In this document: piece by piece, positions 6,864 to 61,566 of the stretch
How positions within the stretch are numbered: the stretch's first letter is position 1
Layout: every line of letters begins with the position of its first letter
Source: Polaromonas sp. 39-63-25
GTDB lineage: Bacteria; Pseudomonadota; Gammaproteobacteria; Burkholderiales; Burkholderiaceae_C
Assembly: GCF_002278925.1 (NCBI RefSeq)
Contig: NZ_NCJH01000007.1
Location: 62,001 to 126,000, forward strand
Length of the DNA: 64,000 nt
Direction: 5' to 3'
Translations under genes and position numbers: made by a program
The notes under the pieces: model-generated
Database searches by the model: none
Seen by the model: only the letters and a program-made list of their open reading frames with translations
What the model was told of the DNA's origin: nothing

Positions 6864-6919
6864 AGAAAAATGCCTCCGCCCCAATAGACACGAGCGCAAG
6901 CAGCTATCTATTCAGGAGC
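6864..6919 (-). repeat. GCT-N11-AGC dispersed repeat, copy I
   Basis: Minus-strand copy of the 56-bp family. GCT and AGC are separated by exactly 11 bases (6903-6919), followed by 7 bases and a second arm pair GCTC / GGGG with a 9-base loop, then a GGAGG-like and T-rich tail. It lies between the convergent ends of panC and the yqjK-like gene, where it could act as a transcription barrier. Confidence 0.8.
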
Positions 6920-6963
6920 ATCAAAGGCCCGGTGAACGCGCACGCTGCCGCGCAGGCGCAAGA

Positions 6964-7338
6964 TCAGGAGGCAGGCGGTGGATCGCCCTCGTCTGCCGGC
7001 CCGGTCGCAGGCGGGCGCTGATCTGCCAGCCACTGGTAACCCTTCCACACCAGCAGGGCCGAACCCGCACCGAGCAAGGCGTAACGCAGCAGCGGCCGGC
7101 GCGCGCCGGCCAGCACCAGCGACAACACCGGGGTGAGCAGGGGCGCACGCTTGAGCAGGCCCAGCGCCAGCGGCAAGCCTTTACCGAACACCCCTCCCGG
7201 GATACCGCCTTTGAACATCGTCACCGACTGCCGCGCCGCACCGAGAGCCTGGACCAGTTCGGCGCGCTCCGTTGCCGAGCGCATCAACAGCAACTGCTTT
7301 CTCAGCGCCCGCTGGCTCTGGGGGGTGGCGTTATCCAT
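6964..7338 (-). CDS. YqjK-like small membrane protein
   Basis: This is a 124-residue protein starting MDNATPQSQRAL. It has a basic N-terminal half and one or two hydrophobic stretches near the C-terminus (LLTPVLSLVLAG; YALLGAGSALLV), then a proline-rich tail. It overlaps the end of the YqjE-like gene by 8 bp. Position and make-up match the third gene of the E. coli yqjD-yqjE-yqjK set, but sequence identity is not obvious, so the name is a position-based inference. Function is unknown. Confidence 0.7.
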   Translation of the reverse strand: MDNATPQSQRALRKQLLLMRSATERAELVQALGAARQSVTMFKGGIPGGVFGKGLPLALGLLKRAPLLTPVLSLVLAGARRPLLRYALLGAGSALLVWKGYQWLADQRPPATGPADEGDPPPAS

Positions 7339-7774
7339 GGGGGTCTCTGCCCTGCGGCATGGCGCTGGTCGCGGCGGCTTGCAGGGCATTGCGGTCCTGC
7401 GCCATTTCGGCAAAGGTGGCCTGCAGGAAGGGCGGCCGCGTGGCCAGCGTGCGCTGCACGCGCCACCAGAACCAGCCGCCCAGGCCCAGGTACACCGCCG
7501 CAAAAAACGCCAGCACTGCAACACGCTGCGCAGGGTCCACGGCCAGCACCACCATCAAGGTGACCATCAGGACGCCGACCAGACCGAACACGAGCAGGCC
7601 CAGCAGGCTCAGCAACAGGCCGATCAGCCGCTGCAACTCTTCCTCGAGCTCGACGCCTGCCAGCGCCACGCGCGTGTGCGCCATGGACAGCGCCGTCAGG
7701 CCCAGCTGGCGCAGCGATGCGAACAGGCGCGGCGGCTGGGGGCCGTCCGGACGGTCATGAGAGGGTGTGTTCAT
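7331..7774 (-). CDS. Phage-holin-superfamily (YqjE/DUF1469-like) membrane protein
   Basis: This 147-residue protein has an amphipathic N-terminal region (LGLTALSMAHTRVALAGVELEEE) and two strong membrane spans (LLLSLLGLLVFGLVGVLMV; VAVLAFFAAVYLGLGGWFWW). That is the pattern of YqjE/holin-like proteins, which sit beside YqjD in the inner membrane. An in-frame GTG five codons upstream (7789) is an alternative start; neither start has a strong ribosome site. It is co-directional with the yqjD-like gene (46 bp) and overlaps the yqjK-like gene. Confidence 0.78.
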   Translation of the reverse strand: MNTPSHDRPDGPQPPRLFASLRQLGLTALSMAHTRVALAGVELEEELQRLIGLLLSLLGLLVFGLVGVLMVTLMVVLAVDPAQRVAVLAFFAAVYLGLGGWFWWRVQRTLATRPPFLQATFAEMAQDRNALQAAATSAMPQGRDPHG

Positions 7775-7820
7775 GGCAACAACAGGCACACCGGCACGCC
7801 GGTGCTTCCCGCCATGGCAA

Positions 7821-8126
7821 TCATGACCTGCGGTTGACCAGCAGGCCGATCAGGAAACCGGCCGCGGCGGCGATGCCGACAGCCCTCCACGGGTTGGCAT
7901 GGACATACTCGTCCGTGACCTTGGCCGCCTCCTTGCCCTTGAGCAGCGCCGCCTCCTGCAAGCCGGTCAGTTTTTCGGTGGCGAGCTTGAGCTTGCCCGC
8001 AGCTTTTTCACGCAGCGCGGCCGCCGTCTCGCCGGTGGCGGCGGTGGCGGCCTTGAGCAGATCCTCCACGTCGGTGAGGACCACTTTCATGTCGGTGATC
8101 AGTTTGTCTTTGCTGGTGGTGTCCAT
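7821..8126 (-). CDS. YqjD/ElaB family (DUF883) membrane-anchored protein
   Basis: This 101-residue protein is made of a long charged helix (residues 1-75, rich in Lys, Glu and Ala) and a C-terminal glycine-rich span (AVGIAAAAGFLIGLLVNRRS). Both are hallmarks of DUF883. E. coli YqjD is an inner-membrane, stationary-phase protein that binds ribosomes; whether this homologue does so is inference. A GGGAGC ribosome site precedes the ATG. It is the first gene of the local trio. A second DUF883-like gene lies at 21626-22027. Confidence 0.85.
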   Translation of the reverse strand: MDTTSKDKLITDMKVVLTDVEDLLKAATAATGETAAALREKAAGKLKLATEKLTGLQEAALLKGKEAAKVTDEYVHANPWRAVGIAAAAGFLIGLLVNRRS

Positions 8127-8308
8127 GGCATGCTCCCAAGTGCGGTGGTAAAAAATCAGGCATCGCGTGAGCCCAAGACCAGTTTAGTCCCATCCGGAAG
8201 CCGCAGGCTGCGCACAGGTTGAAACCTGCCGGGGCCTTGATTCACCGCAATAATGCGGACTGCCCAAATCCGGCAAGCCCCTCTGACCCACCCACCCGCG
8301 AGCCCGCC

Positions 8309-8665
8309 ATGGACCCCACCCTCCTGACCCCCTTGTTCACCCTGCTGGGCACGCTCGTAGGCGGCCTGGTGACCTTTGCCGTGAACCGGCAGCAGTTCAA
8401 GCACCAGATCCAGGCGCTGCAGCAGCAGTACCGGACCGAGTTCATGGCCGAGGAAACCGCGCGCCATTTCCTGAGCCACAAAAGCTTCACCGACCGGTCC
8501 TTCGAGGTGCTCAAAAAACACCTGGGCGGTTTCGACGACGACGAACTGCGCAAGATCCTGGTGCGCGCCGGAGCGGTGCGAACCTATCGCGACGACGACA
8601 GCGAGTGGTGGTACCTGCTGTCGCGCATGAGCGAGCGGATTGAGAAGATGCAGCAAAAGGGCTGA
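8309..8665 (+). CDS. Hypothetical membrane-anchored protein
   Basis: I do not recognise this 118-residue protein. It starts MDPTLLTPLF, has one N-terminal membrane helix (LFTLLGTLVGGLVTFAVN), then a charged, mainly helical cytoplasmic part with a coiled-coil look (residues 25-60). The C-terminal segment (LRKILVRAGAVRTY) may be a small helical DNA- or protein-binding fold. The ATG at 8309 is chosen because the membrane helix begins there; the 30 upstream in-frame codons look non-coding. It stands alone between the yqj-like trio and the IS110 element. Confidence 0.7.
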   Translation: MDPTLLTPLFTLLGTLVGGLVTFAVNRQQFKHQIQALQQQYRTEFMAEETARHFLSHKSFTDRSFEVLKKHLGGFDDDELRKILVRAGAVRTYRDDDSEWWYLLSRMSERIEKMQQKG

Positions 8666-8729
8666 CCTCTGCGTTGCGGCATCACGCTGCGTTCCTGATT
8701 CGCGCTGGACAGCAGGAGCGACTCCCCAC

Positions 8730-9897
<1,168 letters not shown>

Positions 9898-9975
9898 CCC
9901 GCTGGGCGATGGAGGGGGACTTCATTTGGCCGCGTGTGCTGCTCCCGCGTGCAAACATAACGGCCGCTCGACGCT

Positions 9976-10245: not shown

Positions 10246-10343
10246 CCCGGCTTGCTGGCAAGCTACCGCACTTTGAACAACGCGGGGGACAGCAAGCATG
10301 AATCGTGGATTAAGTCCGGGAGGACAAGCCACAGAAAACATTT

Positions 10344-10399
10344 GCTACAAATTCAATAGCTTCCTGCGCCCGTCGATTAAGGGCTGGAGCCATAAAACA
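10344..10399 (+). repeat. GCT-N11-AGC dispersed repeat, copy A
   Basis: A model copy: GCT (10344), 11 bases, AGC (10358-10360), TTCCTGC, GCCC (10368-10371), a 9-base loop, GGGC (10381-10384), then TGGAG and an A-rich tail. It is intergenic, 25 bp past the gpsA stop and in antisense orientation to gpsA. Confidence 0.85.
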
Positions 10400-10424
10400 C
10401 CATCAACCGGGCCCGCAACAGCCG

Positions 10425-11483
10425 CTAACGCAGCTCGGCCGCCGGATCCCGTCCCATCAGCGCCGCCACCGCCTCAGCCGGCTTCACCTGCCCGTCCAGC
10501 AAGGCCACCACCGCTTCGGAAATCGGCATCTCGACACCAAGCCCCTGCGCCCGCTGCACCACCGTGCGGGCGCAGTACACCCCTTCGGCCACATGGCCCA
10601 GCGAGGCGACGGCCTGCTGCAGGCTCTGGCCCTGGGCCAGCAGCAGGCCGACCTTGCGGTTGCGGCTGAGGTCACCGGTGGCCGTCAGCACCAGATCGCC
10701 CAGGCCCGACAGGCCGGTGAAGGTTTCGGCCCGCGCCCCCAGGGCCAGGCCCAGGCGCGTCATTTCGGCCAGGCCGCGCGTGACCAGCGCGGCGCGGGCA
10801 TTGAGCCCGAGGTTCAGCCCGTCGCACAGGCCGGTCGCAATCGCCAGCACATTCTTGACGGCGCCGCCGACTTCCACGCCGACGATGTCGTCGTTCGCGT
10901 AGATGCGCAGGGTCGGGCTGTGGAAGGCCGCCACCAGCGCGTCGCGCACTTCGGCGTGTTCGCTGGCGGCCACCAGCGCGGTCGGTTGGCCGCACGCCAC
11001 TTCCTGTGCAAAACTCGGGCCGCTGAGCGCGCCCGCTCTCAAATTAATAGCTACCTGCGCCCGTATTTCATGGGCCAGGAGCCCAAAAGGCTTGAAGGAT
11101 GAGGAGATGGATGGAACGGCCGGAAGAGCCGGAAGTGGCGCCTCAAACCCCTTGCACAACCAGGCCACCGGCACGCGAATCTGCTGCATGCGCTGCAACA
11201 TGCCGCGCAGGGCCGCGATCGGGGTGGCGATGACGATCAGGTCCTGCTGCGCCAGCACGGCATCCAGCGAAGCATCGGAGCCGCCCGCCAGCAGCAGGGC
11301 ATCGGGTAAGGCGATGCCGGGCAGGTAGCGTGTGTTGATCCGCTGCGCCTGCATCGCCGCCAGCTGTGCGGCGTCACGCGCCCACAAGGTGACCTGATGC
11401 CGCGCAGAGGTGCCGCCAGCATTGGCCGCGCTGATGGCCAGCGCCGTGCCCCAGGCACCGGCGCCAATGACGGCAATTTTCAT
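10425..11483 (-). CDS. gpsA: NAD(P)H-dependent glycerol-3-phosphate dehydrogenase GpsA with a repeat-derived insertion
   Basis: This 352-residue enzyme reduces dihydroxyacetone phosphate to sn-glycerol-3-phosphate for phospholipid synthesis. Visible features are the Rossmann motif GAGAWG (7-12), the CKGFE segment (Lys111), LSGPSFA (153-159), the catalytic-lysine segment GGAVKN, and the C-terminal helical domain. E. coli GpsA has 339 residues. Here residues about 117-150, between CKGFE and LSGPSF, are longer than usual, and residues 131-150 are encoded by a dispersed repeat copy (11035-11090). The frame is intact and all catalytic motifs are kept, so it should be functional. It is the last gene of a rhodanese-grxC-secB-gpsA run. 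Confidence 0.93.
11035..11090 (+). repeat. GCT-N11-AGC dispersed repeat, copy F (inside gpsA)
   Basis: GCT (11035), 11 bases, AGC (11049-11051), 7 bases, GCCC (11059-11062), 9 bases, GGGC (11072-11075), then CAGGAG and an A-rich tail. It lies antisense within gpsA and encodes about 20 residues (roughly 131-150, starting [10 protein letters not shown]). The match to the intergenic copies is as good as between those copies. Confidence 0.82.
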
Positions 11484-11525
11484 GGGAATGAAAAGGCCAG
11501 GGGCAATGCCAGTACCACCGCGTCC

Positions 11526-24350: not shown

Positions 24351-24836
24351 TCAAGGGTGGCAGGCGCCGTGCTGTTTGCGGAAAAGGCGGGGCGGCAGCG
24401 CCTGCGGATCGGCAAACAGCCCACGCTGCGCCGACCGGGCCTGCGCCTGCAACTTCAGGTAGGGCCCGCCCTCACGCCCATACCGGTCCGACCAGGCATG
24501 GCCTTGCGCGACCATCCAGCCGGCCATGTCTTCCCCACCCAGATGCACGGTCGCCACGGCGCGGCCGTAGTCGTCATGACGGTGCGTTCTCACGACCACC
24601 GTGCGGCGCGCCACGCGGCTGGCCAGCGCTGCACGCGCGGCACGGCCGCCGGCCTGGCAGATCTCGGGTGCATCGATGCCGGCCACGCGCAGCTTCACCG
24701 GCTTGCCGCCTCCGGCGGGCCGGACCCACAGGGTGTCTCCGTCGGTGACCCGAGTGACTTTCATGCTCTCCGCCCATGCAGGATGGGCGGAAGCGGCTAT
24801 CAAAAATATAGCAATCTTGAACGCGGTCATGGTCAT
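24351..24836 (-). CDS. Secreted thermonuclease-like (SNase) protein
   Basis: This 161-residue protein has a signal peptide (to about residue 22, AWAES) and one staphylococcal-nuclease OB-fold domain. Catalytic-type residues are visible in VTDGDTLWV, LRVAGIDAPE and DDYGRAVATV. It probably cleaves DNA or RNA outside the cytoplasm. Its ATG overlaps the stop of the DUF429 gene (TGA/ATG). Part of the signal peptide is encoded by a half copy of the dispersed repeat. Confidence 0.87.
   Translation of the reverse strand: MTMTAFKIAIFLIAASAHPAWAESMKVTRVTDGDTLWVRPAGGGKPVKLRVAGIDAPEICQAGGRAARAALASRVARRTVVVRTHRHDDYGRAVATVHLGGEDMAGWMVAQGHAWSDRYGREGGPYLKLQAQARSAQRGLFADPQALPPRLFRKQHGACHP
24796..24812 (+). 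repeat. Possible half copy of the GCT-N11-AGC repeat (copy K)
   Basis: GCT, exactly 11 bases (AT-rich, as in other copies), AGC; the second half of the element is missing. It lies antisense inside the signal-peptide codons of the nuclease gene. A 6-base match with fixed spacing can occur by chance. Confidence 0.3.
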
Positions 24837-25666
24837 GCAGTAACGATCCAGCCCTCAATCGGGTCGACATCACTGGGCAGGCCGTAACGCGCGACGCCCT
24901 GCGCATGCTGCGCTTGGGCCCACGCGGCCTGCATCAGGCAGAGCGCCGCGTCCAGACTGTCACCGCTGGCGTCGTCGACCAGGGTGTCACGCTGCGCGTG
25001 GCTGAGCTTCAGGCGCAGGCCGAGCCGGGTCTGGCCCATTTCCAGCGCGGTGATCAGGTCCTTGCGCGCGATCAGCCGGTCCGGCGTCTGCTTGAGCCGG
25101 TCATCACTTTTGTAGGATCGCCGGCCCAGCACCTCGCGCGCGAGAAGCCCCGGGTAGGCTTCGAGCGCAACGCGCGACAGGTCGCCCGCGTGCAGGCCCG
25201 GCAGGTGAACGCCCGCTGCCAGCAACTGCGGCACACCCGCGTGAAGCATGAAGGCCACCGGCGGATTGATCCATTTCATGGACGGGCTGGAACCGGCGGG
25301 AATATCGGTGGCGCGGTGCGCAAACTTGCCGCCCACAGGACGCGCCGCGCAGAAGGCCGCAAAAGTCTGACGGATCTCTTCCCGGCTGAGGCTGGCGTAG
25401 TGGGCCATCAGTTCCGTCCAAGTGCCCGGCCAGCCGAGATGCTCGACCAGCTCGCGCGGCAGGCCGAAGGGAAAGTCGAACGCACCCAGCCACGCGCGCG
25501 GCTGGTTCAGCCAGTCGCCGAAGGCGTCCAGCGACGCAATATGCTCCAGGCCGGTCAGCAACACGCGCCCGCCGGAAAGTGATCCGCTGGCCAGGACAAT
25601 CGGCTTGCGGCGCGTCGGGCTGCTGGAGAAATCGCAGCCGATCAGCAGGGGCAGGGTCTGAGGCAT
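24833..25666 (-). CDS. DUF429 family protein (predicted RNase-H-like fold)
   Basis: This 277-residue protein begins with the DUF429 signature (LLIGCDFSSSP) and has the conserved GAFDFPFGLPREL, EAYPGLLAR and DSLDAALCLMQAAW segments. The acidic residues in IGCDF, DFPFG and DSLDA look like an RNase-H-type metal site. No activity is established for the family. It shares a 4-bp overlap with the nuclease and lies 12 bp after the EamA gene, so the three may be one transcript. Confidence 0.82.
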   Translation of the reverse strand: MPQTLPLLIGCDFSSSPTRRKPIVLASGSLSGGRVLLTGLEHIASLDAFGDWLNQPRAWLGAFDFPFGLPRELVEHLGWPGTWTELMAHYASLSREEIRQTFAAFCAARPVGGKFAHRATDIPAGSSPSMKWINPPVAFMLHAGVPQLLAAGVHLPGLHAGDLSRVALEAYPGLLAREVLGRRSYKSDDRLKQTPDRLIARKDLITALEMGQTRLGLRLKLSHAQRDTLVDDASGDSLDAALCLMQAAWAQAQHAQGVARYGLPSDVDPIEGWIVTA

Positions 25667-27791: not shown

Positions 27792-27842
27792 GGCCAGATG
27801 TTACCAGTCTGCCCCAAAACGGCCATGCCCCTTTTTTACAAG

Positions 27843-27898
27843 GGTTTTAGGCCTCCAGCCCTTGATGGACGTGCGCTGACAGCTATGAATTAAGGAGC
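27843..27898 (-). repeat. GCT-N11-AGC dispersed repeat, copy C
   Basis: Minus-strand copy: GCT, 11 bases, AGC (27882-27898), 7 bases, GCAC, 9 bases, GGGC, TGGAGG and an A-rich tail. It lies between the clsB stop and the folE start, in the direction of transcription. The folE promoter must share this 159-bp gap. Confidence 0.82.
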
Positions 27899-27950
27899 GT
27901 TTTAGCACCTGCCGGGGAGGAGCCCCGTCAGCAGGCGAATCGGCACGGGC

Positions 27951-29712: not shown

Positions 29713-29803
29713 GGCCTGGGTCCTCTTCTGTCCGGACAGGTAGCGATGCGCGGGAGCTGAGCCGCTCCCGCCGAGCACCGTGCAAATGGCCTGTTTTCAC
29801 AAG

Positions 29804-29859
29804 ACAAATTGGTCTCCAGCTCAATAAACACGGACGCCAGCAGCTATCAATATCGCAGC
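29804..29859 (-). repeat. GCT-N11-AGC dispersed repeat, copy H
   Basis: Minus-strand copy: GCT, 11 bases, AGC (29843-29859), 7 bases, GTCC, 9 bases, GAGC, TGGAG and a T/A-rich tail. It lies in the 164-bp gap between aspS and nudB, in the direction of both genes. Confidence 0.8.
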
Positions 29860-29876
29860 ACGCCGCTGCACCGGCA

Positions 29877-31676
29877 TCAGGCCGGCTGCGGATTGCGCAG
29901 GCGGATGTGCAACTCGCGCAGCTGCTTCTCGTCGACCGGGCTGGGTGCATGCGTGAGCAGGCACTGCGCGCGCTGGGTCTTGGGGAAGGCAATCACGTCA
30001 CGGATGGACTCGGCGCCCGTCATCATGGTCACGATGCGGTCCAGGCCGAAGGCCAGGCCACCGTGCGGCGGCGCGCCGTACTGCAACGCATCGAGCAGGA
30101 AGCCGAACTTCTCCTGCGCTTCCTCCGGCCCGATTTTCAGCGCACTGAAGACCTTGCTCTGCACCTCGGCGCGGTGGATACGCACCGAACCGCCGCCCAG
30201 CTCCCAGCCGTTGAGCACCATGTCGTAGGCCTTGGCGATACATTTGCCGGGATCGGTGTCCATCCAGTCCTCATGGCCATCCTTGGGCGCCGTGAAGGGG
30301 TGGTGCACCGCGCTCCAGCGCTGGCCGTCCTCGTCGAATTCGAACATCGGAAAGTCCACCACCCACAGCGGTTTCCAGCCGGCGGTGAAGATGCCGGTCT
30401 TCTTGCCGAAGGCGCTCAGGCCGATCTTCAGGCGCAGGGCGCCTATGCTGTCGTTGACCACCTTGGCCTTGTCGGCGCCGAAGAAGATGATGTCGCCGTT
30501 CTGCGCACCGGTGCGCTTGAGGATCTCGGCCACCGCTGCGTCATGGATGTTCTTGACGATGGGGCTTTGCAAGCCGTCGCGGCCCTTGGTGACGTCGTTG
30601 ACCTTGATCCACGCCAGGCCCTTGGCACCGTAAATCTTGACAAACTCGGTGTAGCCGTCGATCTCGCCGCGGCTCATCTCGGAGCCGCCCGGCACGCGCA
30701 GGGCCACCACGCGGCCGCCTGGTGTCGTGGCCGGCGCGCTGAAGACCTTGAAGTCCACATCGGCCATCACGTCGGTCAGCTCGGTGAACTCCAGGTTGAC
30801 GCGCAAGTCGGGCTTGTCGGAGCCGAAGCGGTGCATGGCGTCGGCATAAGCCATGACAGGAAACTCGCCGAGGTCGGTGGCCAGCACGGTCTTGAAGATG
30901 TTGCTGATCATGCCCTGGAACAGGTCGCGGATGTCCTGCTCGCCCATGAAGGACGTCTCGATATCGATCTGCGTGAATTCCGGCTGGCGGTCGGCGCGCA
31001 GGTCTTCGTCGCGGAAGCACTTGGTGATCTGGTAGTAACGGTCGAAACCGGCCACCATCAGCAGCTGCTTGAAGAGCTGCGGACTCTGCGGCAGCGCAAA
31101 AAACATGCCTTCGTTGACGCGGCTGGGCACCAGGTAGTCGCGCGCGCCTTCCGGCGTGCTCTTGGTGAGCATGGGCGTTTCGATGTCGATGAAGCCGTTG
31201 GCATCAAGGAACTTGCGCGTTTCCATGGCCACGCGGTAACGCAGCATCAGGTTGTTCTGCATGTAGGGGCGGCGCAGGTCCAGCACACGGTGCGTGAGGC
31301 GGGTGGTCTCCGACAGGTTGTCGTCGTCGAGCTGGAAGGGCGGTGTCACGCTGGGGTTGAGCACGATCAGTTCGTGGCACAACACTTCAATCTTGCCGCT
31401 TTTCAGCGCGTCGTTGACCGTGCCGTCCGGGCGGGCGCGCACCAGGCCCTTGATCTGCACGCAGAACTCGTTGCGCACGCCTTCGGCCGTGGTGAACATG
31501 TCGGCGCGGTCGGGATCACACACCACCTGCACATACCCCTCGCGGTCGCGCAGGTCGATGAAAATCACGCCGCCGTGGTCGCGCCGGCGATTGACCCAGC
31601 CGCACAGGCTCACAGTCTGACCCATCAGGGCTTCGGTCACCAGACCGCAATAGTGGGAACGCATTTGGGAGGTCAT
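29877..31676 (-). CDS. aspS: Aspartyl-tRNA synthetase
   Basis: This 599-residue class II synthetase has an N-terminal OB-fold anticodon-binding domain ([19 protein letters not shown] split at residue 30), the catalytic domain with motif 2 ([18 protein letters not shown]), the bacterial GAD insertion (about 290-420) and motif 3 (GLAFGLDRI). The length is normal. The ATG at 31676 ([11 protein letters not shown]) is chosen; the second methionine four residues later is also possible. The enzyme may be discriminating or not; tRNA-Asn charging cannot be judged from this alone. Confidence 0.95.
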
Positions 31677-31725
31677 AGATATATCGCTTGTACTGGTGGA
31701 CGCTTGCACGCCCTGGAAGAAAAGA

Positions 31726-32349
31726 TTATTTCGGTTTGTAGCTGGCGGGGCTGCCGGGCACCACCACACCCATGGAAATCACATAGGTCAAGGCTTCGTC
31801 AACACTCATTTTGAGTTCAATGCAGTCGACCCTGGGGAGCATGATGAAATAGCCGCCAGTAGGGTTGGGCGTCGTCGGGACATACACGCTCAGGTAGTCC
31901 CCCTGCAAATGGTTGGCCACATCGCCGCCCGGCATGCCGGTCTGGAACGCGATGGTCCAGACACCTTCGCGCGGCCACTGCACCAGCAAGGCCTTGCGAA
32001 ACGCATTGCCGTTTTCCGAGAACAGGGTGTCGGAGACCTGCTTGACGCTGGAATAAATGGACCGGACGATGGGGATGCGGCTAAGCAGGGCATCCCACCA
32101 GCTGACCAGCTTCTTGCCGAGAAAATTGGTCGCCAACGCACCTATCGACAGCACGATGGCCAGCGCCAGCAGAACGCCAAAACCCGGAATGTGAAAACCC
32201 AGCAGTTTGTCGGGATGCCAGTCACCGGGAAGAATTTGCAGCGTCTGGTCCAGCGTGCCAATGATCCAGTTGAGCAGCCAGACGGTGACCGCCAGCGGCA
32301 CCAGGACCAGCAACCCGGCCAGCAACCATCGGCGTATCGCGCCCATCAA
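31726..32349 (-). CDS. DUF502 family membrane protein
   Basis: This 207-residue protein has two N-terminal membrane spans ([40 protein letters not shown]) and the conserved DUF502 segments [14 protein letters not shown] and [13 protein letters not shown]. The function is unknown. Its ATG overlaps the stop of the fmdB-like gene, and aspS follows 49 bp downstream, a common trio in Burkholderiales. Confidence 0.88.
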
Positions 32350-37596: not shown

Positions 37597-38328
37597 TCAA
37601 CACTTGATTCCAACATGTAATGCCACTACCCCGCCGGTGAGGTTGTGATAGTCCACATGGCCGAAACCACCTTTATGCATCAGGGCTTTTAGTTCTTCCT
37701 GGCTGGGATGCATGCGGATGGACTCCGCCAGATAGCGGTAACTCGAGTCGTCGTTGGCCACCAGCTTGCCCAGACGGGGCAATACCTTGAAGGAATACCA
37801 GTCGTAGGCCTTTTCCAGCGGCTTGGCAATTTTGGAGAACTCCAGCACCAGCAGCTTGCCGCCCGGCTTGAGCACGCGGTTCATCTCCTTGAGCGCCTCG
37901 TCCTTGTGGGTCATGTTGCGCAAACCGAAAGCTACCGTCACCAGGTCAAAACTTGCGTCAGGAAAAGGCAAATGCTCGGCATCACACACTGCGGTCGGAA
38001 GAATTTTTCCGGCGTCGAGCATCCGGTTGCGGCCTTCGCGCAGCATGGCTTCATTGATATCGGTGTGCACCACGCAGCCGGTGCTGCCGACTTTTGGGGC
38101 GAACGCCAGGGCCAGGTCGCCGGTGCCTCCAGCGATGTCCAGCACACACTGGCCTTCCCGGACATCGGCCACCATCACGGTGTAGGCCTTCCAGACCCGG
38201 TGCAGGCCCATGGACATCAGGTCGTTCATGACGTCGTATTTCGGCGCCACGGAATCGAACACGCCACGCACGCGGCGCGCCTTGTCTTTTTCGTCAACCG
38301 ACTCGAATCCGAAATGGGTGCTGCTCAT
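37597..38328 (-). CDS. ubiE: Ubiquinone/menaquinone C-methyltransferase UbiE
   Basis: This 243-residue SAM-dependent methyltransferase carries motif I ([13 protein letters not shown]) and the UbiE signatures [17 protein letters not shown] and [18 protein letters not shown]. It methylates the benzoquinol ring in ubiquinone synthesis. It lies 23 bp upstream of the Tim44-like gene and near ubiJ-ubiB, forming a loose quinone-synthesis group. Confidence 0.95.
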
Positions 38329-38406
38329 AAGGTAATGCTAGGGGTGAATGCCGGCAATTCAAGCGACAACCCTGCCCCTGATTGGGGCATTGCCGGGGAT
38401 TTATGT

Positions 38407-38462
38407 TGAAAAACAACAGCTGCGCCCACATACCGGGCGTCGTCAGCTATAAAAAGAATAGC
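38407..38462 (-). repeat. GCT-N11-AGC dispersed repeat, copy J
   Basis: Minus-strand copy: GCT, 11 T-rich bases, AGC (38446-38462), 7 bases, GCCC, a 7-base loop (two shorter than in other copies), GGGC, then a T-rich tail. It is intergenic, between the DUF971 gene and ubiE, in the direction of transcription. Confidence 0.75.
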
Positions 38463-38488
38463 GAGCGAGGGTTTGCCCGCATCAACCA

Positions 38489-38921: not shown

Positions 38922-41900
38922 TCAGACCAGCACGCGTTCGATGCCGCCGTTGTTGGCCGCTTCGACATAAGCGGGCAGCCACTCCTTGCCCAGGATCTGG
39001 TTGGCCATTTCCACCACGATGTAGTCGGCCTCGAGCAAGCCGTTTTGCAGGTCGTCGCCGTACCGGGTCAGGCCCTGCAGGCAGCTCGGGCAGCTGGTCA
39101 GTATCTTGACGTTGCCGGTGCCGGCCACGGCGCCGCTGGCGCGCAATTTGGCCTCGTCCTTGCGCAACTCTTCTTCCTTGCGAAAGCGGATCTGCGTGGA
39201 GATGTCCGGTCGCGTCACGCCCAGCGTACCCGACTCGCCGCAGCAGCGCTCGGACTTGAGCACCTGGTCGCCGAGCAGGGCCTTGACGGTTTTCATCGGT
39301 TCCTGCAGCTTCATCGGGCTGTGGCAGGGGTCGTGGTAGAGGTAACCCTGGCCCGGCTGGTCGGTGCGCAGGGTGATGCCTTTTTCGAGCAGGTACTCGT
39401 GGATGTCGATGATGCGGCAGCCCGGGAAAATCTTGTCGAACTCATACCCCTGCAGCTGGTCGTAACAGGTGCCGCAGCTCACCACCACGGTTTTGATATC
39501 GAGGTAGTTCAGCGTGTTGGCCACGCGGTGGAACAGCACCCGGTTGTCGGTGATGATTTTCTCGGCCTTGTCGAACTGGCCGCTGCCGCGCTGCGGGTAA
39601 CCGCAGCACAGGTAACCGGGCGGCAGCACGGTCTGCACGCCGGCATGCCAGAGCATGGCCTGGGTCGCGAGGCCGACCTGCGAAAACAGGCGCTCCGAGC
39701 CGCAACCGGGGAAATAAAACACCGCCTCGGTCTCGGCCGTCGTGCTGGCGGGATTGCGGATGATGGGGACGTAGTCCTTGTCCTCGATGTCCAGCAGCGC
39801 GCGCGCGGTTTTCTTGGGCAGGCCGCCCGGCATCTTCTTGTTGATGAAGTGGATCACCTGCTCCTTGACCGGCGCCGGACCGACCGTCGCGCGCGGCCTG
39901 GCCGTCTGTTTGCGCGCCAGGCGCTTGAGCAGCTCGTTGGCCATGCGCTGGGCCCTGAAGCCGACGTCCACCATCGCGCTGCGCATGAACTTGATGGTCT
40001 GCGGGCTGGTCGCGTTGAGGAAAAACATGGCCGCCGCATTGCCGGGACGGAAGGACTTCTGGCCCATCTTGCGCAGCAGGTTGCGCATGTTCATGGACAC
40101 CTCGCCGAAGTCGATGTCCACCGGGCAGGGGCTCAGGCACTTGTGGCAAACCGTGCAGTGGTCGGCCACGTCCTCGAACTCTTCCCAGTGCTTGATGCTG
40201 ATGCCGCGCCGCGTCTGCTCTTCGTACAGAAAGGCCTCGACCAGCAGCGAGGTCGCCAGGATCTTGTTGCGCGGGCTGTACAGCAGGTTGGCGCGCGGCA
40301 CGTGGGTGGCACAGACAGGTTTGCATTTGCCGCAGCGCAGGCAGTCCTTGACGCTGTCGGCAATGGCGCCGATGTCGGACTGCTGCATGATCAGCGACTC
40401 GTGGCCCATCAGGCCGAAGCTCGGCGTGTAGGCGTTGGTCAAATCTGCGAACAGGCTCTCCGGTGTGAAGTTATCAGTCTTTTTGGCCTCCAGCCCAATA
40501 CCGGCGGGCGCAAGCAGCTCCTGATTTCGTAGCAACTTGCCCTTGTTGAAGCGGCCCTCGGGGTCCACCCTGCCCTTGTAGTCAGCGAATGGCTGCAGCT
40601 CCGCGTCTGTCAGAAACTCCAGCTTGGTGATGCCGATGCCGTGTTCGCCGGAAATCACGCCGTCCAGCGAACGCGCCAGCACCATGATGCGCGCGACCGC
40701 TTCATGCGCCGCCTGCAGCATCTCGTAGTCGTCGCTGTTGACCGGCAGGTTGGTGTGCACATTGCCGTCGCCGGCATGCATGTGCAGCGCGGCCCAGACC
40801 CGGCCCTTGAGCACCTGCTTGTGGATGGCGCTGCATTCGGCCAGGATGGGCGCAAAAGCGGCGCCGGAAAAAATCGCCTGCAGCGGCGCGCGCAGCTGGG
40901 TTTTCCAGCTGGCACGGAGCGAATGGTCCTGCAACTGCGGAAACAGCGTGTCCACATCGCGCAGCCAGCCCGACCACAGGGCACGCACATCGGCAATCAG
41001 CGCCACGGCCTGGCCGACACGGTCTTCCAGCAGCTCGGCCGAGGGAATCTCGCCGGCGTCGTCCGACTTGCCCAGGGGCAGCTTGCCCTTGAGGAAAAAA
41101 GCTTCCAGCGCATCGCACAATTTGACCTTGTTGGCCAGGCTCAGTTCGATGTTGATGCGTTCGATGCCGTCGGTGTATTCGGCCATGCGCGGCAGCGGAA
41201 TCACCACGTCTTCGTTGATCTTGAAAGCGTTGGTGTGGCGCGAAATGGCGGCGGTGCGCTTGCGGTCCAGCCAGAATTTCTTGCGCGCGTCCGGGCTGAT
41301 GGCGATGAAACCCTCGCCGCGGCGCGAGTTGGCGATACGCACCACTTCCGAGGTGGCGCGTGCCACCACGTCGGCATCGTCGCCGGCGATGTCGCCGAAC
41401 AGCACCATCTTGGGCAGGCCGCCATGGGTTTTGGACTTGGTGGCATAACCGACCGCCTTCAGGTAGCGGTCGTCCAGGTGTTCCAGGCCGGCCAGGATGG
41501 CGCCGCCGCGCTTTTGCTCGGCGAACATGAAGTCCTTGATCTCGACGATGCTCGGCACCGCGTCCTTGGCATTGCCGAAAAACTCCAGGCAAACGGTGCG
41601 GGTGTGCGCCGGCATGCGGTGCACGATCCAGCGCGCGCTGGTGATCAGGCCGTCGCAGCCCTCCTTCTGGATGCCGGGCAGGCCGCTCAAAAACTTGTCG
41701 GTCACGTCCTTGCCCAGGCCCTCCTTGCGGAAGGTCTTGCCGGGGATGTCGAGGCGTTCGGTGCGCACGGGCGTCTTGCCATCGGCCTCGAAATATTTCA
41801 GCTCGAAGCTGGCCATCTCGGCGTCGTGGATCTTGCCGAGGTTGTGGTTCAGGCGGGTGACTTCCAGCCACTGCGCCTCGGGCGTCACCATGCGCCAGGA

Positions 41901-42875
41901 TGAGAGATTGTCCAGCGCCGTGCCCCAAAGCACGGCCTTCTTGCCGCCGGCATTCATCGCGATGTTGCCGCCTATGCAGGAGGCTTCGGCCGAGGTCGGA
42001 TCGACCGCAAAGACGTACCCGCCGCGTTCGGCCGCATCGGCCACGCGCTGCGTGACCACGCCGGCTTCGGTCCAGACGGTGGCCACGGGCTGGTCCAAGC
42101 CGGGCAGCGCCACCTGCTCGACCTCCGTCATGGCCTCGAGTTTTTCGGTGTTGATGACGGCCGACTTCCAGCTCAGCGGAATCGCGCCGCCGGTGTAGCC
42201 GGTGCCGCCGCCGCGCGGAATGATCGTCAGCCCGAGCTCGATGCAGCCCTTGACCAGGCCGGCCATCTCGACTTCGGTGTCCGGTGTCAGCACCACAAAC
42301 GGGTATTCGACGCGCCAGTCGGTGGCATCGGTCACATGCGAAACGCGTGACAGGCCGTCGAACTTGATGTTGTCCTTGAGCGTGAACTTGCCCAGCCTGC
42401 GCGCGGTCTGGCGGCGCAGGTCGGCCATCTCCTCGAACGAGGTGGAAAAACGGCTGACTGCCGCGCGCGCGGTTGCGAGCAGCTCGCCCACAATGGCGTC
42501 GCGCTGGCTGTCCGCCTCGGGTGTGCGGCGTTTTTCGACCTCGGAGAGACGGTGCTGCAGGGCCTCGACCAGCATCCTGCGGCGCTTGGGGTTGTCCAGC
42601 AGGTCATCCTGCAGATAGGGGTTGCGCTGCACCACCCAGACATCGCCGAGCACCTCATACAACATGCGGGCCGAACGGCCGGTGCGGCGCTCGTCGCGCA
42701 GCAGGTTCAGCAGGTCCCAGGCCCGTTCGCCGAGCAGGCGGATCACAACTTCGCGGTCGGAAAACGATGTGTAGTTGTAGGGAATCTCGCGGATGCGGGC
42801 TTGCCCGGGCACCGCGTCGGGCGTCGCTTCGGTAGCGAAAACGTTCAGTTCTTGGAGGGTGTCAGGGGCGTTCAT
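38922..42875 (-). CDS. Giant FAD/[4Fe-4S] oxidoreductase (DUF3683, FAD-linked oxidase C, CCG domains)
   Basis: This 1317-residue protein of the D-lactate/glycolate-dehydrogenase superfamily has a DUF3683-like N-terminus (about 1-160), an FAD-binding domain ([13 protein letters not shown] near 210), FAD-oxidase C-terminal region to about 780, two [4Fe-4S] motifs ([11 protein letters not shown] near 842; [12 protein letters not shown] near 903) and two CCG cysteine-rich domains (FPGCGSE near 1060; HDPCHSP and CCGESG near 1190). It probably oxidises a D-2-hydroxyacid and passes electrons to quinone; the substrate is not known. Residues about 781-800 come from a dispersed repeat inserted in the linker. 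The ATG at 42875 is chosen over an upstream in-frame start. Confidence 0.9.
40478..40533 (-). repeat. GCT-N11-AGC dispersed repeat, copy G (inside the FAD/Fe-S gene)
   Basis: Minus-strand copy: GCT (40531-40533), 11 bases, AGC (40517-40519), 7 bases, GCCC, 9 bases, GGGC (40493-40509), TGGAGG and an A-rich tail. It is in the sense orientation within the oxidoreductase gene, encodes part of [16 protein letters not shown] and keeps the frame. Confidence 0.85.
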
Positions 42876-42992
42876 CGTGGGGGAAATTCCGCCGCGCTCA
42901 GCGGCCGTGCGTGCTGTGGGCCTAATGTTACCGCAGTGCCACATTTGTTCCGGGCTCGCCCTGACCCTCGTGGAAACCCGCTTGTAGGCGCA

Positions 42993-48000: not shown

Positions 48001-48291
48001 TCAGGCTTTCCAGCCACGCAGCAACACCCACTGGCAGGTCGCCGCACCCACGGCCAGCAGGGCATAACTGGCCATCTTGCCGTCGCGGCCAAAAATGACC
48101 AGGCCGGCCACCAACAAGGTCAGGGACGCTACAAAAACAATAGCTATCTGCGCAGACAGGGAAAGGGTCAGAGGACTTTTTGATCTGAGAATTCGGGCAA
48201 AGGCACGGGCCGCCAGCACCACGAACAGCGCCACAAAGGCGGCCGGAGCCATGAAATTGAGCAGCTGGTTGATCAGGTTGAGTGCAGTCAT
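48001..48291 (-). CDS. Small membrane protein containing a dispersed repeat
   Basis: I do not recognise this 96-residue protein. It has three hydrophobic stretches: AAFVALFVVLAARAFA (about 17-32), IAIVFVASLTLLVAGLVIF (about 49-68) and ASYALLAVGAATCQWVLL. A copy of the dispersed repeat (48128-48182) encodes the loop and the start of the second span. The frame is intact. It is convergent with ugpQ, 9 bp apart, and divergent from hemA. It resembles small Burkholderiales membrane proteins of unknown role. Confidence 0.68.
   Translation of the reverse strand: MTALNLINQLLNFMAPAAFVALFVVLAARAFARILRSKSPLTLSLSAQIAIVFVASLTLLVAGLVIFGRDGKMASYALLAVGAATCQWVLLRGWKA
48128..48182 (+). repeat. GCT-N11-AGC dispersed repeat, copy E (inside a small membrane-protein gene)
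   Basis: GCT (48128), 11 bases, AGC (48142-48144), TATCTGC, then a degenerate second arm (GCAG / GGGT) and a T-rich tail. It is antisense in the 96-residue ORF and keeps it in frame. The second hairpin is weak, so this is an older or partial copy. Confidence 0.65.
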
Positions 48292-50928: not shown

Positions 50929-50952
50929 TGGTTGATGGCTGAATTTTTAATG

Positions 50953-51008
50953 CCAAATTGGCCTTCAGCCCTTGATCAATGGGCGTCACCAGCTCCTGTT
51001 TTCATAGC
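50953..51008 (-). repeat. GCT-N11-AGC dispersed repeat, copy D
   Basis: Minus-strand copy: GCT, 11 bases, AGC (50992-51008), 7 bases, GCCC, 9 bases, GGGC, TGAAGG and a T/A-rich tail. It fills most of the 88-bp prfA-prmC gap and ends 8 bp before the GTG start of prmC, so it would be part of that leader and overlap the ribosome-binding region. Confidence 0.83.
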
Positions 51009-51016
51009 AGTGCACC

Positions 51017-54370: not shown

Positions 54371-54374
54371 CCGG

Positions 54375-58428: not shown

Positions 58429-58505
58429 TGGTCGGGGTGAGAGGATTCGAACCTCCGGCCTCTACGTCCCGAACGTAGCGCTCTACCAGGCTAAGCTACA
58501 CCCCG
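58429..58505 (-). tRNA. tRNA-Pro (anticodon CGG)
   Basis: A 77-nt cloverleaf on the minus strand. The acceptor stem pairs CGGGGTG with CACCCCG, the anticodon stem CTACG / CGTAG frames the loop TTCGGGA (anticodon CGG, codon CCG), and the T-loop TTCGAAT is intact. CCA is encoded (58429-58431). It lies between ispB and pilB; the 156-bp gap to pilB (58273-58428) holds no other gene. Confidence 0.95.
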
Positions 58506-58524
58506 AAAAATGCCGCCTCAGGCG

Positions 58525-59508
58525 TCAGGAACGACGCTGCAGCAGCTGAGAAGCCAATTGTAGCAAGGCCTCGCTGTAGGGGTTGACCCCCAGTGCCGCC
58601 AAGGCCTGGACAGCGCGTTGAGCCTCCGCGGCCGCTGCATCCCGGGTCGCCTGCAGGGCACCGGTCTTGCGGACGATCGCCACTATCTCGGCCAGCTGCC
58701 CCGTCCCGCCGGTCTCGATGGCCTGCCGGATGGTGGCCTGCTCGTCCGCGGTGCCGCGCTGCATGGCGATGATCAGCGGCAGGGTCGCCTTGCCCTCGCG
58801 CAGGTCGTCCCCTAGGTTTTTTCCCATTTCCTCGGCGTCGCCGTCATAGTCCAGCACATCGTCAATCACCTGGAAGGCGGTTCCCAGCGCCTGTCCGTAG
58901 TCGGCGCAGGCAAGCTCTATGTCAGCCGGCGCCTGCGCCAGCAATGCAGCCAGCCGGGCGCTCGCCTCGAACAACTTGGCGGTTTTGGAGCGAATCACGC
59001 GCAGATAGCCTTCTTCGGACAGACCGGCATCGTGCATGTTCATCAATTGCAGCACTTCGCCTTCGGCAATGATGTTGGTCGCCTCGGCCAGGGTTTGCAT
59101 GATGCGCATGTCGCCGGCATCGACCATCATCTGGAAGGCCCTGGAATAGAGGAAATCTCCCACCAGAACACTGGCCGGGTTACCAAATGAAGCGTTGGCG
59201 GTGGCCCGACCCCGGCGCAGGGCGGACTCGTCAACCACGTCATCGTGGAGCAAGGTCGCCGTATGTATGAATTCCACCACAGCGGCCAGATTGAAACGCT
59301 GCTCGCCGCGGTAACCCAAAGCACCGCACATCAGCAGCAGCAACGCAGGGCGCAGGCGCTTGCCACCGGCGGCGATGATGTACTGCGATACCTGGCTGAC
59401 CAGGGGCACTTCGGTGCTCAGGCGGCGCGCGATCACCGCGTCCATGGCTTGCATGTCGTCGGCAATCAGGGCCAGTGCGGCGGCGGTGCTAGAAGAATTT
59501 ACAGACAA
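58525..59508 (-). CDS. ispB: Octaprenyl-type polyprenyl diphosphate synthase
   Basis: This 327-residue all-helical enzyme has the first aspartate-rich motif LLHDDVVDES (about residue 90) and the second VIDDVLDYDGD, which bind Mg and allylic diphosphate. It makes the long isoprenoid tail of ubiquinone, matching the ubi genes elsewhere in the window. The 159-bp divergent gap to rplU holds the rplU promoter. Confidence 0.93.
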   Translation of the reverse strand: MSVNSSSTAAALALIADDMQAMDAVIARRLSTEVPLVSQVSQYIIAAGGKRLRPALLLLMCGALGYRGEQRFNLAAVVEFIHTATLLHDDVVDESALRRGRATANASFGNPASVLVGDFLYSRAFQMMVDAGDMRIMQTLAEATNIIAEGEVLQLMNMHDAGLSEEGYLRVIRSKTAKLFEASARLAALLAQAPADIELACADYGQALGTAFQVIDDVLDYDGDAEEMGKNLGDDLREGKATLPLIIAMQRGTADEQATIRQAIETGGTGQLAEIVAIVRKTGALQATRDAAAAEAQRAVQALAALGVNPYSEALLQLASQLLQRRS

Positions 59509-59590
59509 AACGGTCCAGACATGAGATTTCAGGAATTATAGAAAGCAAGCCCCCAGCCCGGCACACCCAGCGGCGCCGAATGGAAGTCCC

Positions 59591-59618
59591 GTGACAAATA
59601 ACGGCGCCGTGCTAGAAT
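59591..59618 (+). promoter_or_regulatory. Sigma-70 promoter for rplU-rpmA
   Basis: GTGACA (59591-59596) and TAGAAT (59613-59618) with a 16-bp spacer, 49 bp before the rplU start and within the divergent gap to ispB. Both boxes are close to consensus. Confidence 0.65.
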
Positions 59619-59667
59619 CTAGGGCTCTGTGGAAATCCGTCCGCAGAACTCACATACGAGGTCTCAC

Positions 59668-59979
59668 ATGTACGCGGTCATAAAAACCGGCGGCAAACAA
59701 TACAAAGTTGCCACTGGTGAAAAAATTAAAGTAGAACAGATTGCTGCGGACGTAGGCCAAGAGATCGTTATTGACCAGGTATTGGCTGTCGGAAGCGGCA
59801 GCACAATCACGGTTGGTACGCCCTTGGTGTCCGGCGCTACTGTTACGGTAACTGTCCTGTCTCACGGCAGGGGCGACAAAGTGCGCATTTTCAAAATGCG
59901 TAGGCGCAAGCACTACCAAAAACGTCAAGGTCACCGTCAGAACTTCACGGAACTGCAAATCGGCGCCATCGCCGGTTAA
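59668..59979 (+). CDS. rplU: Ribosomal protein L21
   Basis: This 103-residue protein has the normal L21 N-terminus ([14 protein letters not shown]) and the [16 protein letters not shown] signature region. It binds 23S rRNA. The ATG at 59668 is the family start; the frame is open a little upstream. rpmA follows after 28 bp, the classic L21-L27 pair. Confidence 0.97.
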
Positions 59980-60007
59980 GCAGCGACGCACCAAGGAGTA
60001 TTGAAAA

Positions 60008-60265
60008 ATGGCACAGAAAAAAGGCGGCGGCTCTACGCGAAACGGGCGGGATTCCAAGCCAAAGATGTTGGGCGTCAAGAAGTTTGGCGGCGAAGTGATC
60101 AACGCAGGCAGCATCATCGTGCGCCAGCGTGGCACCAAGTTCCATCCGGGCGTCAATGTCGGCATCGGCAAGGACCACACCCTGTTTGCACTGGTGGACG
60201 GTTCGGTATCGTTTGCTGTCAAGGGCTCGCTGAACAAGCACACCGTCAACGTGACCCCAGCGTAA
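60008..60265 (+). CDS. rpmA: Ribosomal protein L27
   Basis: The 85-residue protein has the L27 start [16 protein letters not shown] and the [20 protein letters not shown] signature (split at residue 35). The N-terminal tail reaches the peptidyl-transferase centre. There is no cleaved N-terminal extension of the Firmicutes type. A terminator follows at 60288. Confidence 0.97.
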
Positions 60266-60287
60266 GCTGATCACTTCGATGGCATCG

Positions 60288-60309
60288 AAGCCCCGCTTGG
60301 TCGGGGCTT
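60288..60309 (+). terminator. Rho-independent terminator after rpmA
   Basis: AAGCCCCG (60288-60295), a 6-base loop, CGGGGCTT (60302-60309), then TTGTTGTTTT. It ends the rplU-rpmA transcript before obgE. Confidence 0.85.
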
Positions 60310-60397
60310 TGTTGTTTTGGCCCCTCTTGTTTTCCAATCTTTGTAAACTACCTTCAGGACTCGGACAGCCCGTGCTGCCGGACACCCTTTAAAAATC

Positions 60398-61483
60398 ATG
60401 AAATTTGTTGACGAAGCCTATATTGACATCGCCGCTGGCGATGGCGGGAGTGGCTGCGTCTCCTTCCGCCATGAAAAGTACAAGGAGTTCGGTGGCCCCA
60501 ACGGCGGTGACGGCGGCCGCGGCGGGCATGTTTATGCCCTGGCGGACGTGAACCTGAACACCCTGGTCGATTTCCGGTTTTCGCGCCGCCACCACGCACG
60601 CAATGGCGAGCACGGCATGGGCTCGGACATGTTTGGCGCCAAGGGCGACGACATCATCCTCAAGATGCCGGTGGGCACGATCCTGACCGACGCCGAAACC
60701 GGCGAGGTTCTGTTTGAGCTGCTGGTGCCCGGCGAGGAAGTGCTGATCGCCAAGGGCGGCGACGGCGGCTTCGGCAACCTGCGCTTCAAGAGCTCGACCA
60801 ACCGGGCGCCGCGCAGCAAGACGCCAGGCTGGCCCGGTGAACACAAAAGCCTCAAGCTGGAACTGAAAGTCTTGGCCGATGTCGGTCTGCTGGGCATGCC
60901 CAATGCCGGCAAGTCCACCTTCATTTCGGCCATTTCCAACGCCAGGCCGCGTATTGCCGACTACCCGTTTACCACCCTGCACCCCAACCTCGGTGTAGTG
61001 CGGGTTGGCCCGGAACAGAGTTTTGTCGTTGCGGATTTGCCCGGCCTGATCGAGGGCGCCTCAGAAGGTGCCGGTCTGGGCCACCTGTTCCTGCGCCACC
61101 TGCAGCGCACCCGCCTGCTGCTGCACATCGTGGACATGGCGCCGTTTGATGACAGCGTGGATCCTGTGGCACAGGCCAAGGCCATTGTGGGGGAACTCAA
61201 GAAATACGATGAAGCGCTGTACAACAAGCCGCGCTGGCTCGTACTCAACAAGCTCGACATGGTGGATGCGGACAAGCGGGCCGCGCTGGTCAAGGACTTT
61301 GTCAAACGCTTCAAGTTCAAGGGCCCGGTCTTCGAGATCTCGGCCCTGACACGCGAGGGCTGCGAGCAGCTGGTCAAGACGATTTACCAGCACGTCAAGT
61401 CTGTGCAGAAAAGCGAGCAGGAACCTGAAGAGGTCGACCCGCGTTTTGCGGAGTTGCCGGCAGACCCGCCGGCAGCCGGCTGA
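60398..61483 (+). CDS. obgE: GTPase Obg/CgtA
   Basis: This 361-residue protein has the glycine-rich Obg fold (residues 1-158, [18 protein letters not shown]) and a G domain with GMPNAGKST (G1), DLPGLI (G3) and LNKLD (G4). It binds the 50S subunit and links ribosome assembly to stress. It follows the L21-L27 pair, the usual order. Confidence 0.96.
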
Positions 61484-61510
61484 AAACGCCTGCAGCCGCT
61501 CTTTTGCCGT

Positions 61511-61566
61511 GCTACATAAATAGTAGCTACTCGCGTCCAGCCACCAAGGGCTGGAGCACTAAAATG
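61511..61566 (+). repeat. GCT-N11-AGC dispersed repeat, copy B
   Basis: Here the first hairpin extends to 5 bp (GCTAC / GTAGC). After AGC (61525-61527) come 7 bases, GTCC, 9 bases, GGGC, TGGAG and an A-rich tail. It lies between obgE and proB in the direction of transcription, ending 8 bp before the proB start. Confidence 0.84.

Follow-up and report, generated by a model that had tools for sequence, protein, structure and literature searches.

The question raised by a 64,000-nt stretch of the Polaromonas sp. 39-63-25 genome (contig NZ_NCJH01000007.1, positions 62,001 to 126,000; hereafter the window) is what kind of element recurs along it in a fixed frame, between genes as well as inside them. 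An earlier note on this DNA had described a strict dispersed family of ten 56-bp copies plus a half copy, and had suggested selection on a hairpin structure or a mobile unit. Here, we argue, with a probability of roughly 0.45 for the explanation as a whole, that the unit serves as an address in double-stranded DNA, spread over the whole genome, and is neither a simple mobile repeat nor an RNA element; most likely, it acts in the manner of a DNA uptake sequence (DUS).

A 66-bp motif recurs throughout the genome

A full scan of the window with a position weight matrix (PWM; 70 columns, built from this genome, G000) returned 11 copies scoring 36.6–68.2 bits. All ten full copies of the earlier note, each with the pattern GCT-N11-AGCT-N4-R-CG, are present where it placed them; six of the ten lie on the minus strand, and for these the earlier coordinates gave the low-coordinate ends. 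The eleventh, formerly taken for a half copy at 24796, turned out to be a diverged full copy on the minus strand (24747–24813, 39.2 bits), and the unit itself is about 66 bp long rather than 56, with tail columns 51–54 and 61–63 included.

Over 737 kb of this genome, i.e. the window and 35 further stretches, the PWM identified 130 copies and none on the reversed sequence at every threshold from 6 to 20 bits. Genome-wide, the pattern matched 500 times (237+263) as compared to 115 times (60+55) in the reversed control; the scan proposed earlier as a check on chance occurrence thus yielded far more matches than its control. The first 340 kb of contig C18 hold 49 copies and the 64-kb window 11, and from PWM densities and pattern counts we estimate the 4.83-Mb genome to carry ~600–850 copies, occupying roughly 1% of the chromosome. 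The family is as strict as had been claimed, with constrained columns and fixed spacing: the top 90 of the 130 copies align gap-free, with no length variants among them. Pairwise identity of the 130 copies averages 52% and peaks at 82%, indicating that they are not recent duplicates. A further pattern match in the window, at position 24991, lacked a copy-level PWM score. Columns 1–26 alone, at 14 bits, gave 38 matches outside full elements versus five on the reversed sequence, and these may represent diverged copies or true half units.

The motif is probably a feature of duplex DNA

The unit opens with columns 1–18 (GCTAY-NN-WWW-NN-RTAGC-T), which contain a 17-bp palindrome (GCTAY-NN-WWW-NN-RTAGC), followed by a middle 'dialect' block (columns 22–42) that reads GCGCCCGTNNNNCAAGGGCT in this genome. 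After the dialect block, AGGC--ATTT and an A-rich tail close the shared frame, the right part comprising GGAGGCC (columns 43–49), a T or A tract (51–54), and an A-rich end (61–63). In total, the motif holds ~54 bits of information, and its strongest mutual information is between adjacent columns. TpA steps are rare in the A/T triplet of columns 8–10 (12 of 118 copies vs. 34.2 expected) and in columns 51–54 (5 of 103 copies vs. 37.6 expected). This avoidance is as expected if a narrow-groove A-tract were required, and suggests that the duplex is read by its shape.

The covariance check of the two arms gave no clear sign of the hairpin selection that had been suggested. RNAalifold predicted zero pairs on the 90 aligned copies, and within each of eight genomes (see below) pairing of the stem columns was near the expectation from column composition. 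Small excesses occurred at inner pairs in Acidovorax (0.71 vs. 0.60 and 0.76 vs. 0.66; 17 copies) and at one pair in Rhodoferax ferrireducens (0.67 vs. 0.52; 33 copies), with deficits elsewhere. Fold z-scores were weak (means of −0.7 to −1.4 for up to 60 copies per genome), and at the Rfam gathering threshold only tRNA was found in the window, the motif copies being unmatched. On the strength of the RNAalifold result and the near-expectation pairing, we rejected an RNA or single-stranded DNA hairpin.

Copies are old, held in place, and written in dialects

We compared this genome with a congener (G004) whose GpsA protein is 94% identical. Out of 60 copies (C18 and window), 30 were covered by G004 sequence and all 30 aligned, with no empty site; the other 30 fall where no G004 sequence aligned. 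Rescoring 27 of these 30 in G004 gave 26.7–75.1 bits, three copies with indels being left unscored. In the reverse direction, 33 of 33 covered copies (of 54) aligned. Between the two genomes, columns 13–17 showed no change in 150 sites and columns 1–3 a single change in 90, while the low-information columns of intergenic copies changed at 0.225 per site; column information and change rate are anticorrelated (Spearman −0.63, p = 4e-9). The copies are old and held.

The motif was also found in further Comamonadaceae records. At the site within the FAD-oxidase gene (the window copy at 40468–40534), 21 of the 80 named records scored above 14 bits, among them records of Polaromonas, Rhodoferax, Acidovorax, and Xylophilus. 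Records named Variovorax and Limnohabitans lacked the copy; of those named Hydrogenophaga, one had it in weak form (12 bits) and the others not at all. It was also missing from some records of Polaromonas, one of Rhodoferax, and one of Acidovorax; absence may be over-called here, because the matrix derives from this genome and some loci are short. On the tree of 81 rows, presence required at least 11 changes, eight of them forced by well-supported branches, and was more clustered than in all 500 shuffles.

The sequence at this site is degenerate in L065 and L066 (2.4 and −14.8 bits), and the whole genome to which L065 belongs, that of Polaromonas sp. JS666 (G046), contains only 16 model matches. 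Both are apparently lineages losing the system, unless their dialect differs. In L122, L126, and L141, the same linker of the FAD-oxidase carries a different in-frame repeat, encoding SPLGRPEANQPPRGAATRE (slightly altered in L126 and present twice in L141), i.e. a member of another repeat family at the same permissive linker.

Eight genomes carried one copy per 2.9–6.1 kb in the stretches taken, some of which were chosen where matches were listed, with zero matches on the reversed control (two in G045). Columns 1–18 and 43–54 are largely common to all eight (with a weaker left arm in the R. ferrireducens record); six forms of the middle block occur: GCGCCC..GGGCT in G000, G004, and G014; GCGCTT..AAGCGCT in Acidovorax NO-1; GCGCA..GCGCTA in Rhodoferax bucti; GCCCTT..AAGGGCT in R. 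ferrireducens A7; AGGCAATAAATACGCCGGCTA in G045; and GCGCA..TGCGCAA in G024. By eye, the FAD-oxidase copy follows the dialect of its own genome in L076, L099, L105, L112, and L119.

G024 consists of one contig of 4,410,291 bp, probably the chromosome, and eight smaller contigs amounting to ~18% of the genome, probably plasmids. A stricter form of the motif pattern matched 213 times in G024 and never in the reversed control, and only one of the 213 matches fell on the smaller contigs, as compared to ~37–41 expected. The pair ATAGCT(N)22CAAAAG occurs 125 times in G024 (59+66; control 2), the same as the number published for P. naphthalenivorans CJ2, and none of its listed sites lies on the smaller contigs. 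Based on this count and on replicon sizes, we take G024 to be that strain and the smaller contigs to be its plasmids.

The element unites two motif pairs that had appeared in print separately and without explanation. In passages of Tong et al. 2017 (PMC5217627), ATAGCT(N)22CAAAAG of P. naphthalenivorans CJ2 and GCTTAT(N)5AAGCG of A. ebreus TPSY are given as potential novel motifs with no function, and R. ferrireducens T118 is the richest in motif pairs among the genomes scanned. Both pairs are segments of the present element in two dialects, corresponding to columns 13–46 and columns 25–40, respectively. Those passages present the pairs separately and unjoined, and describe no 66-bp extension, dialects, in-place origin, or absence from plasmids. 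Our literature searches, restricted to open-access papers and hence not showing absence from print, turned up neither the full element nor a joining of the two pairs; nor did they yield a family name, in line with the earlier note, which knew of none.

Most coding copies compared appear to have arisen in place

Predicted genes contain 46 of the 130 copies, 21 of them in sense and 25 in antisense orientation, and these strongly favour some reading phases over others (17, 15, 5, 5, 3, and 1 over six phases; p = 2e-5); as the gene finder was crude, individual assignments may err. Among the 84 non-coding copies, 81 could be classed by spacer type, three at stretch ends being left out. Convergent spacers were enriched (26 of 81 vs. 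13.3 expected) and divergent ones depleted (6 vs. 19.7; p = 2e-5). Copy spacing is compatible with random (Kolmogorov-Smirnov p = 0.23), and C18 carries 25 copies on the plus and 24 on the minus strand, with GC skew negative in every 20-kb bin.

The gpsA gene offers the closest view of a coding copy. The copy at 11034–11100 (plus strand, 52.9 bits) lies antisense inside gpsA (10425–11483, minus strand), over native codons, so that its complement encodes GpsA residues 128–150. Over 20 genomes, our own included, this segment is gap-free (five partial loci were excluded, and two genomes gave no match), and the motif score varies with the codons between −41 and +60 bits. A native proline has become isoleucine (GCT ATT or ATC) in six genomes, and other good-scoring genomes keep the proline through a GCTCC half-site (GCT CCT ... 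ATA GC); G012, for example, retains it in this manner, and G000 has GCTATT. The length of GpsA varies just upstream of the copy, and in the comparison with Coxiella GpsA a 17-residue gap extends over the copy's first few residues.

Ten of the 46 coding copies, picked for their recognisable protein relatives, were compared for length. Relative to solved structures, the change amounts to 1, 2, and 7 residues at the three copies in PutA, 0 in UreF, 1 in PepN, and 2 in XdhA; a copy in PolA fell outside the part aligned to solved structures and was uninformative. Relative to the motif-free congeners G005 and G013, with which five coding copies could be compared, it is 0 in XdhB and GpsA, 2 in XdhA, 5 residues plus an upstream gap in a fourth gene, and 18–19 in the FAD-oxidase gene. 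Overall, seven of the ten copies change length by at most 2 residues, two by 5–7, and one, in the FAD-oxidase, by 18–19. This suggests that most of the compared copies arose by substitution at the site, and that one was inserted.

A site likely read by a trans-acting protein

We favour a site that is recognised by a trans-acting protein and that selection or molecular drive maintains, its most probable role being that of a DUS-like tag. The protein would read the 66-bp frame partly by DNA shape. Fragments bearing the local dialect would be taken up preferentially via type IV pili, involving a ComP_DUS-family minor pilin and ComEC, and would recombine into the chromosome, spreading good copies to homologous sites. 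Uptake and recombination would leave plasmids motif-free and let dialects diverge. Mobility alone would not carry a motif through conserved codons, and an RNA element has no need to avoid TpA; a duplex site that is read by a protein and kept uniform within each lineage fits. The ComP_DUS family (PF16732) is encoded in 32 of 33 genomes and in none of 14 controls, and ComEC in 30 of 33. Reading 11 ComP-like pilins revealed no pattern among them.

Several observations weigh against this reading. ComP_DUS and ComEC are also encoded in motif-free genomes, and several of the ComP_DUS matches span only part of the profile. The two genes consequently show only that the machinery is possible, and we discarded them as discriminating genes, since they do not separate motif-bearing from motif-free genomes. 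With ~66 bp and ~54 bits, the unit is far longer than a 10–12-mer DUS, and its copies are, at the average identity given above, strongly degenerate. A core-versus-accessory enrichment was dropped, since the density on C18 was not clearly different between G004-alignable (27 copies in 191 kb) and unalignable sequence (6 copies in ~62 kb) in a recount starting at 87 kb, the first 87 kb lying outside the fetched G004 sequence. Given this length, degeneracy, and lack of core bias on C18, we propose that the unit behaves as an uptake sequence does, and stop short of calling it one. Taken together, the high-information columns changed at 0.085 per site, close to the 0.083 of the 300-bp flanks, which are mostly coding; among the informative columns, 26 and 41–42 change at a near-neutral rate; part of the frame is thus strongly held and part weakly. 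By eye, the FAD-oxidase copy in L084 and L085 does not clearly follow the dialect of its genome, and in this genome that copy faces the 18–19 residue gap in both motif-free congeners. Finally, 40 stretches from viral contigs (L238–L277; host flank or phage DNA) exactly match a strict 26-base form of the motif.

The spacers likewise count against it. Compared with motif-free congeners, spacers that hold a copy are longer (median +98 bp vs. 1 bp in controls, p = 8e-5; nine comparisons of seven spacers and 45 control spacers, with gene ends extrapolated from alignments). The copy at 50943–51009 (minus strand, 67.7 bits) occupies most of an 88-bp intergenic region; the orthologous spacer measures 41–139 bp in 12 records with the motif and at most 34 bp in 27 of 29 without it, records with intermediate scores being excluded. 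Among five control spacers, one is likewise longer in this genome (162 bp vs. a median of 65). At the copy at 29794–29860 (minus strand, 53.3 bits), just 3′ of a class II aminoacyl-tRNA synthetase gene (29877–31769, minus), the spacer is 164 bp as compared to 39 and 77 bp in motif-free congeners. At 38397–38463 (minus strand, 36.6 bits), just upstream of ubiE (37597–38328, minus), it is 160 bp versus a median of 72.5 bp in 54 records lacking the motif there. Either ready-made copies were gained at these spacers or the spacers were trimmed after loss; no recent insertion was found between G000 and G004 among the 30 covered copies. Empty-site orthologues, which the earlier note had suggested looking for, are thus seen as a clean gap opposite intergenic copies and the FAD-oxidase copy, and not opposite seven of the ten coding copies compared.

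Other repeats occur near some of these sites. In the spacer orthologous to that at 50943, L072 has GC-rich palindromic repeats of the CCCCGAGGGGG type before the motif, and L101 has them with the motif absent. Stretches adjoining motif copies at L017:3166–3280 and 1254–1304 have many matches in G004 and G017, of high identity over 30–110 bp and some as inverted pairs, and are probably a separate dispersed repeat.

The foremost competitor, to which we assign a clearly smaller share of belief, takes the copies to be sites at which a chromosome-organising or nucleoid-associated protein complex binds with a long footprint that is sensitive to DNA shape; the copies would then be kept by selection on chromosome structure, and the dialect would change as the protein evolves. 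The frame at the level of the duplex, with its palindrome and its A/T tracts poor in TpA, would suit such a complex, as would the distribution of the G024 copies, which favours the large contig over the small ones, the balance of strands on C18 with its uniformly negative GC skew, and the random-like spacing. Yet hundreds of ~54-bit sites would need individual selection far above the ~13–14 bits that we estimate to suffice for finding them, and the patchy presence over 81 records, with at least eight forced changes, and the near-neutral change of some informative columns fit drive better. Less probable still, and in our view doubtful, is a non-autonomous mobile repeat, of the miniature inverted-repeat transposable element type, the repetitive extragenic palindromic (REP) type with its REP-associated tyrosine transposase (RAYT), or akin to Rickettsia palindromic elements, that entered spacers and, in frame, genes and is now mostly old. 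The longer spacers, the presence or absence at 50943 within Polaromonas records, the 46 copies within predicted genes with their strong phase preference, the gap at the FAD-oxidase copy, and the viral-contig matches would all be expected of it. It leaves unaccounted for that seven of ten compared coding copies alter the length of their protein by no more than 2 residues, the motif lying in place, that the best 90 copies have no length variants, that a single strict copy out of 213 lies on the probable plasmids of G024, that different genera share orthologous sites, and that columns are constrained after arrival.

The sole transposase candidate sought speaks in the same direction. The Y1 (RAYT-type) family is encoded in 24 of 25 genomes of the genus regardless of motif number; this genome has a single such gene (G000:C32:171163–171489, L044), and no motif match flanks it in L044, with matches in four of the other 19 RAYT loci. 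The RAYT-like transposase with matching ends anticipated earlier was hence not recovered, and a REP/RAYT element was rejected on these grounds and for want of a conserved hairpin; nor does a simple mobile unit agree with orthologous sites across genera, in-place coding copies, and near absence from the probable plasmids of G024. Structured RNAs or bidirectional transcription terminators between genes would explain the excess of convergent over divergent spacers and the near-palindromic middle block of the Acidovorax and R. ferrireducens forms, but with over a third of the copies inside predicted genes in both orientations, zero predicted pairs, pairing near expectation, weak fold z-scores, and no Rfam match for the window copies, we consider this very improbable.

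The remaining copies in the window

Besides the copies in gpsA, near the aminoacyl-tRNA synthetase gene and ubiE, and at 50943, the window holds further intergenic copies at 6854–6920 (minus strand, 62.4 bits), between convergent genes and past the 3′ end of a pantoate ligase gene; at 10343–10409 (plus, 64.2 bits), likewise between convergent genes, 15 bp past the 3′ end of gpsA, and shared with G004; at 27833–27899 (minus, 68.2 bits), between tandem genes; and at 61510–61576 (plus, 45.8 bits), just upstream of an amino-acid kinase/PUA gene (61575–62711). The copy at 40468–40534 (minus, 65.4 bits) falls into an interdomain linker of the FAD-oxidase/Fe-S gene (38922–42944, minus), and that at 48127–48193 (plus, 58.3 bits) into a weakly predicted open reading frame (48001–48291) with no Pfam match. 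The diverged copy at 24747–24813 encodes a hydrophobic N-terminal stretch (FKIAIFLIAASAHPAWA) of a predicted SNase-family protein; signal-peptide-like hydrophobic N-termini are encoded both by this copy and by one at L012:6244–6310.

Comparison with known systems

A signal of about 66 bp that differs by lineage and leaves its mark on proteins, GpsA and PutA among them, could influence barriers to gene exchange across a large family of bacteria from freshwater and soil. The motif also offers a test case for molecular drive: its sites number in the hundreds, its dialects are known, some lineages carry it and others lack it, and there are cultivable strains.

DNA uptake sequences appear to be the best behavioural match among known systems. 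Passages of Treangen 2008 (PMC2397512) describe Neisseria DUS as occupying permissive core locations, conserved, and absent from recently acquired genes, with sites facing gaps attributed to recombination and conservation to mutation-selection balance or drive; DUS dialects are treated in passages of Frye 2013 (PMC3630211). Set beside these passages, the present motif resembles Neisseriaceae DUS in its hundreds of copies on both strands of coding and intergenic DNA, its conservation at orthologous positions, its gains both in place and facing gaps, its dialects, its loss from some lineages, the encoded ComP-family minor pilin, and its scarcity on at least one set of probable plasmids, those of G024. 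It differs in being a degenerate 66-bp composite frame of ~54 bits rather than a 10–12-mer, and its consensus is unlike the DUS sequences quoted in those passages.

Uptake signal sequences of the Pasteurellaceae combine a core with A/T tracts about one helical turn apart. The A/T tracts of the present motif (columns 51–54 and 61–63) are similarly ~10 bp apart, but its sequence is not known to be related to theirs and it has, in addition, a palindrome and a dialect block. Rickettsia palindromic elements are in-frame repeats within protein genes that arise as insertions, unlike the seven of ten compared coding copies here, which replace native codons with little change in length. REP elements with RAYT transposases form hundreds of short dispersed copies, as does this motif in a genome with a single Y1/RAYT gene; unlike them, it showed no conserved hairpin, the RAYT gene of this genome is unflanked and the family occurs regardless of copy number, and a third of its copies lie in predicted genes. 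More tentatively, we suggest that the Comamonadaceae may carry a third uptake-type family of self-recognition sequences beside the DUS of Neisseria and the uptake signal sequences of the Pasteurellaceae: a 66-bp composite that would be partly read by shape, comes in lineage dialects, appears to rewrite coding sequence in place, and is largely chromosomal. If of the uptake type, it would be by far the longest such sequence known to us.

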